DNA of 64,000 nt. It comes from Halobellus sp. LT62 (GTDB taxonomy: Archaea; Halobacteriota; Halobacteria; Halobacteriales; Haloferacaceae). How positions within the stretch are numbered: the stretch's first letter is position 1; every line of letters starts with the position of its first letter. Below, piece by piece: positions 38,358-50,056 of the stretch. The notes beneath the pieces are model-generated. The model had not been told where the DNA came from. It saw only the letters and a list, made by a program, of their open reading frames with translations, and ran no database searches. A program made the translations under genes and the position numbers. Where the stretch lies: NCBI RefSeq assembly GCF_037031285.1, contig NZ_JAYEZO010000001.1, forward strand, positions 1,860,001 through 1,924,000, in the 5' to 3' direction.

Positions 38358-38801
38358 TTACGAATTCTCGTACTCGAAGGACCGAAGTGTCGCTGAACTG
38401 CTGCCGTCCTCGGCCTCCCAGGTGACGCGGATGGTGCCGCCGTCATTCGAGTTAGCTTCGACCTCGAAGTTGTCACCAGAACTCACACTGTCTCCGCTTA
38501 TAGACCGTTCGAGCGCGGTAACTGACTCACCGGTTTGGTATATATCACCGTTCACGTACAGATTCGATTCCGGAATGGAATCGCCAGCCATGTGGGTAAT
38601 CGTCGCATTATCGGTATCCTCTAAGTTCGTCGTGTTGATCTCGAACGTCGCCTGCGGTGCGGACTGCCCGATGCCCTGCCCGAGATTCAGCACGAACGCG
38701 CCGATGACCGCGGCGAGAATGACGGTGATTGCCACCATTAGAATCACGCCGATAACGGGACTGACCGCGCGTTCTTCCGTGAAAAGTTGCTTGATGTTCA
38801 T
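38358..38801 (-). CDS. archaeal pilin / type IV pilin-like protein
   Basis: This protein carries the archaeal class III signal of pilins: a short positive leader ([12 protein letters not shown]), then [20 protein letters not shown], the hydrophobic alpha-helix typical of haloarchaeal pilins. A prepilin peptidase should cut before VSPVIG. The rest is polar and Asn/Thr/Ser-rich with glycosylation-type NTT sequences ([11 protein letters not shown]), as in a surface protein, and ends FEYENS. I start at MNIKQL (38801), because MALRDNT before it is unlike the family. No pilus assembly genes are nearby, so it must use a system elsewhere. Confidence 0.85.
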
Positions 38802-39026
38802 CGTATTGTCTCTGAGAGCCACTTGACTGATATTACGTATAATATTATTGTCCTACTTATCAAAATTAATACTGTACATCGTAACCGGCTGACATAAAAG
38901 AGAACTGAGATCTCACTCCTGATCCTGACACGAACCGATACTCAAATGTGTCGGGCCTATGTCGCCTGCTACCACTCTCAGCGACAGGAACCGGCCATTT
39001 ATCCGTCCCGCCGACGTAGTACCGCT

Positions 39027-39730: not shown

Positions 39731-40843
39731 TTAATGTAGGGCCCGATCGACGTGTTCGCAGATCTCCTCGCGGAACCGTGCCCGGCCGAACCGAGCAGAC
39801 GACTGTTCGGGGGGTCGATCCCGTTCGATCGCCGCGCTGAGTATCTCGATTGCCTCGTCGACCGATCCGAACAGTCGATCCTCGCGTTCGTCGAGGACCT
39901 CCCGCTGTCCTCCGCTGTCGGGGGCGAACGCGATCATCCCGCTTGCGACGTACTCCGCGACGGACATCCCGAAGTGCTCTCTGGGTTTGAGATTCAGCCC
40001 GTACCTGTGCGTCCCGAGCAACTCGTCGAGCCGCGTTCTGGAGACGTCGCGTTCGACGGTGACGTACGGGCGTTCGTCGGCCGCGCTTTCGACCCGTTCG
40101 ACGTACCTGCGGTACGACCGCGGAGCCGTGCCGACGACGTGGAGGTGAACGTCGTGGCCGCGTCGCCGGACGCCGTCGACGACCTCGACGGCGTCGAGTA
40201 CCCGTTTGTCGGGTGCGATGCGGCCAGCGACGACGACGCCGCCCTCTCGCTCGCGCCAGTCGGCCCGTGGCTCGATCGGATCGATCGGCGGATGGACGAC
40301 GGCCGGCTCGACGCCGTAGACGCGCTCGAAGACGTCGGCCGTCCACGACGAGTTCGCGAGCGGCGTGACATCGTCGAACCCGTTTCGGGCGGGCCCCGCG
40401 ACTCGGCTCCACAGCGGGTTCAACGCACCCGACGCGTCCGGTATTCGGTTCAGTCGGAACTGCGGGTAATGGACGTACTGCACCGAGGGAATCGAGAGGT
40501 CGAACTCGTTCGCCGTGCTCACCGCGAGGTCGAACGCGTCGGCCTCGCGTTCGAAGAACCGGCTGACAAGGACGCTCCTGAGCGGTAACTGCGGACCGAC
40601 TACCGGCCCGATCGTCGATAGCGCCCTCGCGACCGCAGTCCCGCCGCGTGGACTTGGGACGTCGATCCGTCTCGCGTCGAGATCGATATCGAAGCGCTCG
40701 GCGAGGACGCTCGGTGGCGTCTCCGAGAGCGTGAACAGGCTCACGTCGTGATCGCGCTGGAGCGCTTCACAGACGGAGAGACAGACGACGTCCGCGCCGC
40801 CGTGGAAATCCAGCGTGTTGTGGACGACGGCCACCCGTGCCAT
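39731..40843 (-). CDS. GT4-type glycosyltransferase
   Basis: This 370-residue protein adds sugars to a lipid or protein carrier, probably from a nucleotide-sugar. It has the GT-B fold with an N-terminal ARVAVVHNTLDFHGGADVVC and a C-terminal nucleotide-sugar domain with GGVVVAGRIAPDKRVLDAVEVV and the catalytic-type HFGMSVAEYVASGMIAFAPDS motif (E in the EX7E-like site). The start is MARVAVVHN (40843). It is divergent from the MocA-AKR fusion gene across about 145 bases, and a CDP-alcohol phosphotransferase follows that gene, so the three may serve a glycolipid or glycan route. Confidence 0.88.
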   Translation of the reverse strand: MARVAVVHNTLDFHGGADVVCLSVCEALQRDHDVSLFTLSETPPSVLAERFDIDLDARRIDVPSPRGGTAVARALSTIGPVVGPQLPLRSVLVSRFFEREADAFDLAVSTANEFDLSIPSVQYVHYPQFRLNRIPDASGALNPLWSRVAGPARNGFDDVTPLANSSWTADVFERVYGVEPAVVHPPIDPIEPRADWREREGGVVVAGRIAPDKRVLDAVEVVDGVRRRGHDVHLHVVGTAPRSYRRYVERVESAADERPYVTVERDVSRTRLDELLGTHRYGLNLKPREHFGMSVAEYVASGMIAFAPDSGGQREVLDEREDRLFGSVDEAIEILSAAIERDRPPEQSSARFGRARFREEICEHVDRALH

Positions 40844-40987: not shown

Positions 40988-43006
40988 ATGGAGTGTGCCT
41001 TCGTCGGTGCTGGCGCTGTCGCGCGTAAGTACGCCGCCGGGCTCGAAGATTCGCCGCTGACTCTCGCGGCCGTCTGCGACCTCGACTGCGAGCGGGCCGA
41101 GCGGCTCGCGAGCGCCTACGACGCTGCGGCCTACACGGACCTCGGCGCGTTGCTCGACGCGGAGGCCGCGCCGCTCGTGGTGAACCTCACGAGCCACGGC
41201 GCACACGCCGATGTCACGGCTGCGTGCCTCGCTGACGACCGGCACGTATTCAGCGAGAAGCCGCTCACGCTGGAAGCCGACCGCGCGAACGCTCTCGTCG
41301 GTCTCGCGGACGAGCGCGGCCTCGCTCTCGGCTGCGCGCCGATCAACCACCGCTGCGACGCACAGCGACACGCCCGGACGTTCCTCGACGACGGCCGGTT
41401 GGGAGAGATCCGACTGGGGTACGCACACGCGCACGTCGGACGAGTGACCGAGTGGCACGACAGCCCCGATTCGTTCCTCGCAGCCGGGCCGCTGTACGAC
41501 GGCGCGGTCTACCCGATCTCGCTTCTGATCGACTGGTTCGGCCCCGTTGCGGCGATCAGGACCGCCGACGCGCTCGACGTGTGGCCGGACCGTGAGGAGC
41601 GCACCCCGTCCCGCCCGGCACACGTCGAGGCGACGGTCGAATTCGCGTCTGGCCCGGTGGTTCGGCTCACCGCGAGCCTCTATGCGCCCCACCGCAGCCG
41701 CGAGTTCAACAGCCTCGAACTCCACGGCGACGACGGTTCGCTGTACCTCGCCGACAGCGGCGCGCTCGCGGCCGAACGGGACACTGTCTCCGTCGGCGGC
41801 GCGGGTCGGCCGTACGTGGCGGCTCCGCACCCCTTTCCGCGACGCGAAACCCGGTATCTGTCCGGTCCCGAGAACCTCGCCACGAGGATCGAACGCGGCG
41901 ACGCTCCCACGGGCGGCGCTCGACGAGCGGCGCACGTCGTCGCCGTCTGCAACGCCGTCGAGCGGGCGGCGGTGAGAGGCTCTCGCGTCGCGGTCGACGA
42001 TGCACCGACGGCGACACGCGGTCTCGTCGACTCCGATCGCTTCGCACCGCCGGTCTGCCCGCCGGATCGCGGTGCCGCAACGGGTCCAACGACGGCCAAA
42101 TCAGACGCTCCCGAGGTTCGCGACGCCGCGATCCGGCTCCCACCGATCGGCTTCGGGTGCTCGCGGTACCGCGACGGCGAGTACGTCGACCGGATCGACT
42201 CGGTCGCGACGGCGCTGGACGCGGGCTATCGCCTGTTCGACTCAGCCGAACTGTACGGCAACGAATCGCGGATCGGCGCGCTCCTCGATTCGCCCGGATC
42301 TCCGGACAGAGAGGGGTTGTTCGTGATCGGCAAGGTCTGGAACACGAACCACGAACACGTGCTCGAGGCCTGTACGGGGAGCCTCGACGAACTCCGGATC
42401 GACGCCTTCGACTCGTATCTCCTCCACTGGACGGAGGCGTGGGCCTATCAGGGACCGCTGTCGGACCTCGCCTCCAAACCCGTCGAGGCGCAGGAGGAGT
42501 TGACGTTTCCGACCGACGAGCACGGCGATCCCGCCGCTGCCGACGTCTCCGTGGAATCGACGTGGCGTCGGCTCGAAGCGCTTCACGACCGGGGGCTGAC
42601 GCGGACGCTCGGCGTCTGTAACGTCTCGCTGTCGCAACTGGAACGGATCGTCGACGTCGCGAGGGTGCCGCCTGCCCTCGTGCAGGTCGAATCGCACCCG
42701 TACCGGCCTCGCTCCGCGTTGGTCGAGTGGTGCCACGCGAGAGGAATTCGCGTGCTCGCGCATTCGCCACTGTCCGCGCCCGGGCTCCTCGAGGAATCCG
42801 TAGTACGGGAAATCGCGGACGACCACGGCGTTTCGCCCGCCGAAATCGCGCTCGCCTTCCACGTCGACCGCGGCGTCGTTCCGATCCCCGCTAGCAACGA
42901 TCCAGACCACGTCGTCGCGAACCTCGCGGCCGCGCGGATCCGCCTGACCGACGCGGACCGACGGCGTCTCGCAGCGCTCGAGGACCCGGAGTTCGAGCGT
43001 GACTGA
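40988..43006 (+). CDS. fused Gfo/Idh/MocA dehydrogenase and aldo/keto reductase
   Basis: A single 672-residue protein joins two oxidoreductase domains. The N-terminal half (about residues 1-345) is a Gfo/Idh/MocA dehydrogenase: MECAFVGAGAVARKYAAGL (NAD(P) loop), HVFSEKPLTLEADRA with the EKP Lys, and CAPINHRCDAQRHARTFLDD. A linker (APPVCPPDRGAATGPTTAKS) leads to an aldo/keto reductase with the tetrad in FDSAELYGNESRIGALL (Asp, Tyr), FVIGKVWNTNHE (Lys) and YLLHWTEAWAY (His). Both sites look intact. It overlaps the next gene by 8 bases. Two domains that reduce or oxidise sugar carbonyls suggest a substrate-channelling sugar enzyme. Confidence 0.9.
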   Translation: MECAFVGAGAVARKYAAGLEDSPLTLAAVCDLDCERAERLASAYDAAAYTDLGALLDAEAAPLVVNLTSHGAHADVTAACLADDRHVFSEKPLTLEADRANALVGLADERGLALGCAPINHRCDAQRHARTFLDDGRLGEIRLGYAHAHVGRVTEWHDSPDSFLAAGPLYDGAVYPISLLIDWFGPVAAIRTADALDVWPDREERTPSRPAHVEATVEFASGPVVRLTASLYAPHRSREFNSLELHGDDGSLYLADSGALAAERDTVSVGGAGRPYVAAPHPFPRRETRYLSGPENLATRIERGDAPTGGARRAAHVVAVCNAVERAAVRGSRVAVDDAPTATRGLVDSDRFAPPVCPPDRGAATGPTTAKSDAPEVRDAAIRLPPIGFGCSRYRDGEYVDRIDSVATALDAGYRLFDSAELYGNESRIGALLDSPGSPDREGLFVIGKVWNTNHEHVLEACTGSLDELRIDAFDSYLLHWTEAWAYQGPLSDLASKPVEAQEELTFPTDEHGDPAAADVSVESTWRRLEALHDRGLTRTLGVCNVSLSQLERIVDVARVPPALVQVESHPYRPRSALVEWCHARGIRVLAHSPLSAPGLLEESVVREIADDHGVSPAEIALAFHVDRGVVPIPASNDPDHVVANLAAARIRLTDADRRRLAALEDPEFERD

Positions 43007-43850
43007 CGCGGCGTCGGTCCCGACGAGACTCCGCCGCGAGTGGGTCGCCGTCGCGACGGGCGCGTCCGTTCTCTTGGTCTCGGGAGCCGCGGCTCTCTCG
43101 TTCGTCGTCGACGCCCCGACGCTCGCCGCGGCGACGCTTCCCGCCACGCCGGGACTCTCCGTGTCGACTGTGCTTGCCGGTCTACCGGTCCCGCTCCGCT
43201 GGCTTGTTCCGACCGCTGCGGTCGCGGCCTACGAGCTGTGGTTCTGTTTCCGGTACCTCCGATTGAACCGCCCCGAGGCGTCGGCTGCCGGCCGCTCGCC
43301 GCACCGTCGGTTGGGCGTTCCCAACCTCGTCACGCTCGCCCGCGGCGGGCTGTTCGCCGCGGTAGCGGGCTTTGTCGCACTCGCACCGCGCGCAGAGATC
43401 GCGTGGATTCCCGCGATCCTCTATGGTTTCGGATGTGCGTTGGACGCGGTCGACGGCGCGCTCGCTCGACGGCTCGACCGCCGCACCGTCCTCGGCGCGA
43501 AACTCGATATGGCGATCGATACGACCGGGTTTCTGCTCGCGCCCGTCGTCGCGGTCCTGTGGGGTCAACTGCCGATCTGGTACCTCTCGCTGTCGGTCGC
43601 ACGGTATCTGTTCAAATTCGGACGGGGTCTGCGCCGTCGCCGTGGGAAGTCTGTCTACGACCTGCCGGACAGCCTCGTTCGCCGCCCGCTCGCGGGGATC
43701 CAGATGGCGTTTATTACGCTCGCGCTCTCTCCGCTCTTCGATCTGGGCGCGATCCGGCCGCTGGCGGCCGTCGTCCTCGCGCCGTCGCTCGCGGTCTTCG
43801 CTCGCGATTACCTCGTGGTCTCGGGCCGGATCGCACGCAGCCGTCGGTGA
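42999..43850 (+). CDS. CDP-alcohol phosphotransferase
   Basis: The 283-residue membrane enzyme moves a phospho-alcohol from CDP-linked lipid or polyol to an acceptor, as in archaeal phospholipid synthesis. It has the complete family signature DxxDGxxARx8Gx3Dx3D: DAVDGALARRLDRRTVLGA then KLDMAID. Several hydrophobic segments flank it (VPLRWLVPTAAVAAYELWF; FLLAPVVAVLWGQLPIWYLS). The start is the GTG at 42999, in an 8-base overlap with the MocA-AKR gene, so it is coupled. Its product may be an inositol- or glycerol-type lipid head group, possibly one the upstream enzyme makes. Confidence 0.88.
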   Translation: MTDAASVPTRLRREWVAVATGASVLLVSGAAALSFVVDAPTLAAATLPATPGLSVSTVLAGLPVPLRWLVPTAAVAAYELWFCFRYLRLNRPEASAAGRSPHRRLGVPNLVTLARGGLFAAVAGFVALAPRAEIAWIPAILYGFGCALDAVDGALARRLDRRTVLGAKLDMAIDTTGFLLAPVVAVLWGQLPIWYLSLSVARYLFKFGRGLRRRRGKSVYDLPDSLVRRPLAGIQMAFITLALSPLFDLGAIRPLAAVVLAPSLAVFARDYLVVSGRIARSRR

Positions 43851-48480: not shown

Positions 48481-48561
48481 GCTCCGCTGTGATCGTCCGG
48501 GTTGGTTTCACTCTGCCGTCCGATCGGTGCGTTGTTCTATCCGGTCCGCCTACGGGACCCT

Positions 48562-49170
48562 ATGCGCGCTGCGCTCATCCTCGCCGGCGGCCGTTCGACC
48601 CGCTTCGGCGACCGCGACAAGGCGGTCGCAGAGCTCGCCGGCACGCCGATGATCCGACGCGTCGTCGATCGGCTCGCGCCCGTCGTCGACGAGGTGGTGA
48701 TCAACTGCCGGAGGGATCAACTAGACGCGATCGAGGCGGCGCTTTCGGGGGTCGATCCCGAGCCGGCGTTCGCCGTCGACCGCGACCCCGACGCGGGGCC
48801 GGTGGCTGGTATCGCCCGCGGCTTGGAGGCCGTTTCCGCGGAGTACGCGGTGGTCGTCGCCTGCGATATGCCGTTCGTCGAGCCCGACGTCGTGCGGCTT
48901 CTGTTCGAGCGCGCGGCGGGGGAAGACGCCGCGGTCCCGCGACCGGACGAGTGGTATCAGACCACGCAGGCCGTCTATCGGACCGAGGCGATGCGCCGGG
49001 CCTGCCGTCGGGCGCTCGAACGCGGGGCGGATCGGATCGTCGCGCCGCTGGAGGAACTCGACGCGGTCGTCGTCGACGCGATCGAGTCGGTCGGCTCGCT
49101 CGACACCTTCGAGAACGTCAACACGGTCGAGGAGTTCGAGGCGGCGAAAGAGCGGCTCGGAAGCGAGTGA
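48562..49170 (+). CDS. mobA: molybdenum cofactor guanylyltransferase
   Basis: This enzyme links GMP to molybdopterin to make the guanine dinucleotide form of the cofactor. The 202-residue nucleotidyltransferase has LILAGGRSTRFGDRDKAVA at its N-terminus, with the GG-loop for GTP, and the Mg2+ motif VVACDMPFVEPD near residue 95. The start MRAALILAGG (48562) fits. The YqeC-like gene that follows on the other strand and the tungstate-type transporter later support a pterin-enzyme context. MobA-type proteins are hard to separate from other NTP transferases by sequence, but the context is good. Confidence 0.88.
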   Translation: MRAALILAGGRSTRFGDRDKAVAELAGTPMIRRVVDRLAPVVDEVVINCRRDQLDAIEAALSGVDPEPAFAVDRDPDAGPVAGIARGLEAVSAEYAVVVACDMPFVEPDVVRLLFERAAGEDAAVPRPDEWYQTTQAVYRTEAMRRACRRALERGADRIVAPLEELDAVVVDAIESVGSLDTFENVNTVEEFEAAKERLGSE

Positions 49171-49288: not shown

Positions 49289-50056
49289 TCAGACGACGTC
49301 GACGAGTGGATCCTCTGCCCGCATCTCCGCCAGAACCACCCGCGGGACGTCGACGCGATCGTGGATTTCGGCGGCGACCTCTCGGGCCGTCGCTTCGAGG
49401 TCGTCGTCGTCGACCATATTGAGCAGGGGAATCGCCGTCGCGCCCGCGGGAACGTCTTTCAGCCCGCCTTGTTCGCTCGCGAGCACGGCGGCGACGTCCG
49501 CCGCGGAGATCTCCTCGCCCTCGGACAGTCCGGTGATCTTCGATACCTCGTCGACGCGGTGAACGAGCGATTCCGAGAGGGGTTCGCCCACCACGTGAAC
49601 GCTCGCGACCGACACCACTATGTCCGCTGTTCTCGGGAGCTGCGGTTCCTTCGACGACGGTGCTTTGAACCGTCGCATCCGCGCACCGTCGGCCTTCACG
49701 AGCACGGGCACGTCGAACTCGCCGAGTTCGTCGACGACCGCCGGATCGTAGCCCCGATAACGGTCGTCGCGTTCGCGTTCCGGAACGAGCCCGAGCGGCC
49801 AGCCGTCCTCGGATTCTGATTCGGGGTCACTGCTATCACTCGGCGCGTCGCTCGTCATTTCGCCGAGCGCGCCCACCGGATCCTCCGTGACGACGACGCG
49901 GTCGACCCAGTCGTCGAAAATCGGGATTCGGACGGTCGCGGTGACGACGGCTCGGTCCAATCGTGAGGCGAGCGCGGCGAGCGTCGTCTTCTTCCCGCCC
50001 GCGCCGACGACGCAGGTCGTTCCGCTGTCGGCCTCCAGCGCAGCGACGATATCCAT
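49289..50056 (-). CDS. yqeC: YqeC-like selenium-cofactor/molybdopterin enzyme maturation protein
   Basis: The protein has an N-terminal P-loop-like CVVGAGGKKTTLAALASRL and the conserved VLVKADGARMRRFKAPSSKEPQLP block seen in YqeC. YqeC proteins are linked to maturation of selenium- or pterin-containing enzymes in bacteria, with no fully proven function. The 255 residues include an acidic, haloarchaeal insert (SDAPSDSSDPESESEDG). It is convergent with mobA. An exact origin-type repeat lies within it (49612-49631), under the codons for PRTADIVVSV. Confidence 0.82.
   Translation of the reverse strand: MDIVAALEADSGTTCVVGAGGKKTTLAALASRLDRAVVTATVRIPIFDDWVDRVVVTEDPVGALGEMTSDAPSDSSDPESESEDGWPLGLVPERERDDRYRGYDPAVVDELGEFDVPVLVKADGARMRRFKAPSSKEPQLPRTADIVVSVASVHVVGEPLSESLVHRVDEVSKITGLSEGEEISAADVAAVLASEQGGLKDVPAGATAIPLLNMVDDDDLEATAREVAAEIHDRVDVPRVVLAEMRAEDPLVDVV
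49612..49631 (+). repeat. ORB-like repeat 12, inside the yqeC-like gene
   Basis: ACACCACTATGTCCGCTGTT matches the consensus of the origin repeats at all 20 positions, better than most copies at the origin itself. It lies 40 kb away, within coding DNA, on the plus strand. Confidence 0.6.

Follow-up and report, generated by a model that had tools for sequence, protein, structure and literature searches.

Members of the Gfo/Idh/MocA oxidoreductase family are recognised by the lysine of an E/Q-K-P motif and, in the C-terminal domain, by a further catalytic residue, usually His. Glucose–fructose oxidoreductase (GFOR) of Zymomonas reportedly uses such a Lys together with a Tyr, and it is also said to couple an oxidation with a reduction; both half-reactions are run in a single active site. 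The 64,000-nucleotide stretch of the haloarchaeon Halobellus sp. LT62 analysed here (the window; G000:C1:1860001-1924000, in a genome of 3.23 Mb on 3 contigs) encodes a protein with a GFOR-like half, to which a second, whole reductase of the aldo/keto reductase (AKR) superfamily is fused. This fusion is a genuine, conserved joining of two well-known enzyme families, and it is nearly confined to haloarchaeal genomes that carry the gene for a medium-chain dehydrogenase (MDR). We propose, with a probability of about 0.5, that it is a haloarchaeal two-domain tailoring (accessory) enzyme belonging to a conserved gene set with the MDR, a 6-pyruvoyltetrahydropterin-synthase-like protein (PTPS), a GT4 glycosyltransferase, an S-adenosylmethionine (SAM) methyltransferase and a CDP-alcohol enzyme, and that it carries out redox chemistry on the sugar or polyol of a GTP-derived, glycosylated and possibly lipid-linked metabolite.

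The fusion protein and its two active sites

The fusion gene and its parts lie in the window as follows.

40988-43006, + strand: fusion gene joining Gfo/Idh/MocA and aldo/keto reductase halves; open frame with ATG start, 672 aa
40991-41992, + strand: Gfo/Idh/MocA half, residues 2-335, with the Rossmann motif GAGAVA at 7-12, EKP with K91, and D171 and Y175 in DGAVYP
41993-42127, + strand: linker between the halves, residues 336-380, disordered at about 340-379 (pLDDT low at 340-352 and 361-379) and little conserved
42128-42985, + strand: aldo/keto reductase half, residues 381-666, with D418, Y423, K449 and H480

The N-terminal half matches GFO_IDH_MocA (PF01408; residues 2-114, E = 5.3e-18, 66.3 bits against a cut-off of 24), GFO_IDH_MocA_C3 (PF22725; residues 127-252, 48.2 bits against 27) and GFO_IDH_MocA_C (PF02894; residues 133-335, 30.8 bits against 22.9). 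With a Rossmann domain and a Gfo C-terminal domain, it belongs to the Gfo/Idh/MocA family by both Pfam and fold. Its EKP motif occupies residues 90-92, and Tyr (Y175) stands in place of the usual His. The C-terminal half matches Aldo_ket_red (PF00248; residues 387-664, E = 1.2e-41, 143.2 bits against 24), and the TIM-barrel AKR domain with its Asp-Tyr-Lys-His tetrad places it in the AKR superfamily. The first-pass annotation, made from the letters of the window, had described two oxidoreductase domains joined by a linker in one 672-residue frame with both sites intact, and this description is borne out for the window protein.

The AlphaFold model of the fusion has a mean pLDDT of 88.6 and a pTM of 0.88, with confidence falling in the linker. 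The N-terminal half was best superposed on GFOR (1h6d; Z 34.9, root-mean-square deviation (rmsd) 2.7, 335 residues aligned, 16% identity); levoglucosan dehydrogenase and 1,5-anhydrofructose reductase score within 1 Z of it. The likeness to GFOR extends from the fold to the Lys of E/QKP and the Tyr of DxxxY, whereas the low identity and the second whole reductase set the window protein apart. The C-terminal half was best superposed on aldose-6-phosphate reductase (7s5i; Z 34.8, rmsd 2.3, 283 residues aligned, 31% identity), followed by mannose-6-phosphate reductase (7s5f), and other AKRs, such as the steroid-acting AKR1C3, lie within about 1 Z. It shares the tetrad with aldose and aldose-6-phosphate reductases, and the AKR chains among its structural matches are 30-38% identical to it, but it differs from them in being fused to a Gfo/Idh/MocA half and in being degenerate in some lineages; we give it no subfamily. 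A sequence search with this half was led by chains of mammalian alcohol dehydrogenase [NADP+] / aldehyde reductase. Scores against NCBIfam equivalogs fall far short of the cut-offs for 2,5-didehydrogluconate reductase (DkgA/DkgB, 144.7 against 425 and 143.1 against 327 bits) and for myo-inositol 2-dehydrogenase IolG (TIGR04380, 45.3 against 355 bits). A common fold is no proof of substrate.

Both sites are widely kept. We compared 61 proteins from loci fetched by earlier searches, which are not a random sample; identical rows were merged, L070 is absent, and L071 (264 aa) and the first frame of L063 (339 aa) were left out beforehand. K91 is kept in 59/59 proteins with residues at that place (L063 and L064 are gapped there), within EKP in 45 and QKP in 14, and D171 and Y175 are kept in all 61. 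The AKR tetrad is intact in 56/61 and incomplete or missing in 5. Conservation of the linker is poor, with a median identity of 18% to the window protein. For a half-to-half comparison six rows were left out (four degenerate proteins, L068 and L063). Among the remaining 55 proteins the pair identities of the two halves correlate with r = 0.88 (1485 pairs), and the median pair identity is 0.66 for the AKR halves and 0.62 for the Gfo halves. This co-variation fits one old fusion whose halves would have evolved together.

The four degenerate proteins (L069, L109, L110 and L111) have Gfo halves 56-63% and AKR halves 31-38% identical to the window protein, and each retains a pseudo-enzyme AKR half in one reading frame. 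The L111 locus is found also in Haloarcula halophila, with its product named as Gfo/Idh/MocA only. As the tetrad is lost in these four, and genes for MDR, PTPS, methyltransferase and CDP-alcohol enzyme still adjoin L109, L110 and L111, AKR activity is dispensable in some lineages. It could then be argued that the Gfo half alone is the enzyme and that the AKR half is mainly structural or regulatory, its tetrad nevertheless kept in most lineages, and the low identity of these 4/61 AKR halves next to their Gfo halves speaks for this. We consider it unlikely, given the many intact tetrads. The AKR halves are also as conserved as the Gfo halves, which points to selection on AKR activity, and since L070 keeps an AKR half alone there is no simple rule by which the Gfo half is the constant part.

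Spread of the fusion and its dependence on the MDR gene

The fusion was matched (E<=1e-30) in 106/391 sampled Halobacteria genomes. As counted from the search table, it aligns along its length in a single open frame in 99/106; the halves lie on two contigs, at contig ends, in G044 and G278, the C half is aligned just in part in G124, G174, G345 and G367, and G110 holds a remnant with a TGA stop. The loci most similar to the window come mostly from Halobellus species, and conservation across genera rules out chance or an assembly artefact as the origin of the fusion.

No fusion was seen outside Halobacteria in a plasmid collection, a phylum sample and a contig search; no search for the domain pair covered bacterial chromosomes. 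Of 1374 matching records in the plasmid collection, 8 cover 80% or more of the query at a single place, and these 8 are all haloarchaeal. The phylum sample, whose share outside the order is not shown, gave matches at 1e-25 in 16/294 genomes, all of the same order or closer, one of them (G009) through the AKR part alone. The contig search, which finds close relatives only, gave 34 named loci, all haloarchaeal by title. Among these the gene is in two frames in L063 and L068, lacks the Gfo half in L070, stops at a contig end in L071 and has the degenerate AKR half in L069, and L064, from a draft with 25 N, lacks residues 74-147. The Haloarcula rara gene (L068:10001-11979) consists of two overlapping frames, with a frameshift within the AKR half that is either biological or a sequencing matter. 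The first-pass annotation had named a stop or frameshift separating the domains in relatives, or an inactive site, as what would refute its reading; such cases do occur, in a minority (AKR site lost in 4/61 and frameshifted in 1/61, together with the two-frame loci L063 and L068 and the loss of the Gfo half in L070).

The wider gene set comprises the MDR, PTPS, GT4, methyltransferase and CDP-alcohol enzyme and often GTP cyclohydrolase III. An MDR gene (E<=1e-40) was found in 231/391 genomes, and it is carried by 104/106 fusion genomes against 127/285 others, an odds ratio of 65 that, like the next, overstates independence because the genomes are related by descent. For a control gene of the same window, present in 264 genomes and annotated as an iron-containing alcohol dehydrogenase in its Halobellus limi relative, the counts are 83/106 and 181/285 (odds ratio 2.1), so the contrast is large. 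The two exceptions are G072, a 120-contig draft with no MDR match even at 1e-10, and G110, which holds the remnant. The MDR matches are weaker in six fusion genomes of one genus (G139, G146, G184, G293, G296 and G340), where two aligned pieces at 50-62% identity make up most of the MDR; the frames are equally long in five of these genomes and differ in length in G184. The count of 104/106 stands. The fusion genomes are almost a strict subset of the MDR genomes.

In the window genome the MDR, PTPS-like and methyltransferase genes stand together at C1:1779848-1782408 (L079:7849-10409, - strand), outside the window and about 119 kb from the fusion. Their products are 60% (MDR) and 69% (PTPS) identical to those of L042 and 53% (methyltransferase) to that of L040. 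The fusion group and the MDR group are likewise apart in Halobellus limi, on one plasmid. A representative MDR (L042) matches ADH_zinc_N, and in NCBIfam it scores highest with BchC (58.5 bits, cut-off 291). Most archaeal PTPS keep AQH and HSH. GTP cyclohydrolase III is present in the window genome as a single copy (C1:1335463), which is probably the general enzyme, and a copy of the pathway's own was rejected on this ground.

In 28 MDR stretches from genomes without a fusion match (L080-L107; L108, a 1000-base piece, was not counted), PTPS is present in 23 and the CDP-alcohol enzyme in 17. No close copy of either fusion half was found near the MDR in these stretches, where the sole Gfo match (L098) is 29% identical and about 9 kb off, and a split-gene version of the fusion was rejected accordingly. 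Because the MDR core occurs there without the fusion halves, the fusion looks like an optional extra of the gene set.

Genes next to the fusion

Three genes lie close to the fusion in the window.

42999-43850, + strand: CDP-alcohol phosphotransferase, 283 aa, GTG start, overlapping the fusion by 8 bases
39731-40843, - strand: divergent GT4 glycosyltransferase (GT4a), 370 aa
39321-39695, - strand: small protein DUF7475, conserved in the neighbourhood

The GTG of the CDP-alcohol gene at 42999 precedes the TGA stop of the fusion at 43004-43006. Its product belongs to the CDP-alcohol family by PF01066 (54.2 bits against 22) and by an aspartate motif read by eye, D-x2-D-G-x2-A-R-x8-G-x3-D-x3-D, which we take to be the CDP-alcohol phosphotransferase signature. 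Across 58 aligned rows the motif residues are present at 70% or more, and most of them reach at least 95%. A search of PDB sequences with this enzyme gave no match at 0.001.

Neighbours were counted in the 34 named loci, with the window row excluded, up to 10 kb on each side (several are cut by contig ends), and families were scanned with one representative per gene. The CDP-alcohol enzyme is present in 31, DUF7475 in 28, MDR in 23, methyltransferase in 21, PTPS-like protein in 14 and GTP cyclohydrolase III in 12. A GT4 lies near the fusion in 31/34, of the GT4a type in 22 and of a second type in 9 others. The linkage to a CDP-alcohol enzyme and to a glycosyltransferase, both pointed out from the sequence beforehand, is supported by these counts, the latter with GT4s of two types taken together.

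The first-pass annotation had gone further and treated these two enzymes and the fusion as a group that could act on a sugar or cyclitol, with myo-inositol among the substrates to try. On such an account the trio alone, with no tie to the MDR and PTPS genes, might make an archaeal lipid headed by a sugar or inositol. The trio does stand apart from the MDR genes in Halobellus (the window, L038, L039, L041, L061, L066 and Halobellus limi), and in L063, with the GT4 about 7 kb off, and among the weak matches of the CDP-alcohol enzyme in NCBIfam, archaetidylinositol phosphate synthase comes first (NF040950; 1.2e-07, 31.7 bits, far below the cut-off of 180). We nevertheless find this account quite unlikely: 104/106 fusion genomes carry the MDR, fusion and MDR share a neighbourhood in 23/34 named loci, and the CDP-alcohol enzyme accompanies the MDR without the fusion in 17/28 haloarchaeal and 4/7 bacterial stretches. 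The trio is not supported as the functional unit, and the fusion belongs to the wider set with MDR, PTPS, methyltransferase and GTP cyclohydrolase. Nothing singles out inositol as substrate.

Three further window genes were noted by eye. The protein of 38358-38822 (- strand) is short, and its start resembles an archaeal type IV pilin; 48502-49170 (+ strand) matches the place of a molybdenum cofactor guanylyltransferase gene in Halobellus limi and is similar to it; and the product of 49289-50056 (- strand) looks like a YqeC-type protein.

Bacterial relatives and the proposed role

The best solved relative of the PTPS of the window genome is SCO6650 (3d7j; 4.4e-08). SCO6650 reportedly has no PTPS activity, and its neighbour SCO6655 is said to be a GTP cyclohydrolase II that gives formylaminopyrimidine, as archaeal GTP cyclohydrolase III is said to do; if so, the pathway would start from a GTP-derived pyrimidine in both domains of life. 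A plasmid of Streptomyces fungicidicus carries genes for CDP-alcohol enzyme, MDR, PTPS, GT4, methyltransferase, creatininase and RibA, and a similar core is found on plasmids of Microbacterium, Methylosinus, Thiodictyon, Rhizobium and Palleronia, so that these six stretches (L120, L122, L123, L127, L128 and L129) come from both Actinomycetota and Pseudomonadota, two phyla. In 5/6 the genes run MDR, PTPS, GT4, methyltransferase (in Palleronia the GT4 is apart), the Methylosinus methyltransferase being annotated as hypothetical and found by tblastn, and in the incomplete gene tables RibA is listed in 3/6 and RibD in 5/6. As in haloarchaea, the MDR adjoins the PTPS, with methyltransferase and GT4, and the CDP-alcohol gene was matched in 4 of the seven bacterial stretches searched. 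The bacterial clusters differ in having RibA or RibD where archaea have GTP cyclohydrolase III, and neither fusion half was matched in the seven stretches (E<=0.001). In the titles and abstract starts of the open-licence PMC literature we found no paper naming either a Gfo–AKR fusion or what the gene set makes, and no described product of the plasmid clusters with MDR, PTPS, GT4, methyltransferase and RibA or RibD.

These relatives raise the question of whether the gene set, and hence the fusion, serves the synthesis of coenzyme F420. A review, PMC5041015, ties the PTPS-IV subfamily to F420 synthesis on unpublished work, and FGPAQ, the PTPS-IV signature according to PMC5445326, is carried by the cluster PTPS of the six bacteria. 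The three haloarchaeal PTPS aligned are without FGPAQ, and cofG is present in 389/391 haloarchaeal genomes against 231/391 for MDR. Because cofG is near-universal while the MDR is not, the module is not required for F420, and we rejected it as an F420 requirement; a role in F420 synthesis of any kind seems to us highly improbable.

We return to the fusion as a tailoring enzyme of the gene set. As it is nearly confined to MDR genomes, its substrate should be an intermediate or product of the pathway. The Gfo (GFOR-like) half, with NAD(P) and K91/Y175, would oxidise a sugar or polyol at a secondary alcohol, giving a ketone, and the tethered AKR half, with NAD(P)H and D418/Y423/K449/H480, would reduce a carbonyl, either on that molecule or on a partner. 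Overall this would amount to a redox-balanced epimerisation or to an alcohol/carbonyl exchange, in which the coenzyme may be passed between its oxidised and reduced forms. The modified unit might then be glycosylated, methylated and joined by the CDP-alcohol enzyme through a phosphodiester. Of the lipid-headgroup role suggested in the first-pass annotation, the CDP-alcohol linkage stands, and the lipid acceptor is what we infer from the family of that enzyme.

Several points weigh against this proposal. The fold match of the C half gives sugar-type AKRs no advantage over steroid-type ones. EKP is replaced by QKP in 14/59 proteins. Since the AKR half is degenerate in four proteins (the tetrad being lost in L069, L109, L110 and L111), a coupled two-step reaction is not universal. 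Halorubrum laminariae (L070:9614-11035) keeps residues 317-670, the AKR side, without the Gfo half and part of a neighbouring gene, and looks as after a local deletion. Shared descent, as stated above, inflates the odds ratios, and 127 genomes hold the MDR gene without the fusion, which makes the fusion step optional.

More speculatively, and with the odds rather against it, haloarchaea and at least two bacterial phyla may share an undescribed pathway from GTP to a reduced pyrimidine or pterin, bearing a sugar, a methyl group and a phosphodiester to a lipid or alcohol. The haloarchaeal fusion would then be a covalent two-enzyme epimerase of new architecture, which recycles its own coenzyme as it inverts or exchanges a centre of the polyol.

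A natural control is available in the lineages whose AKR half is degenerate. Through the fusion, two redox enzymes are linked to a single pathway. The gene set of that pathway occurs in haloarchaea and bacteria alike, we found no described product for it, and the value of the fusion is as a marker of this uncharacterised pathway.

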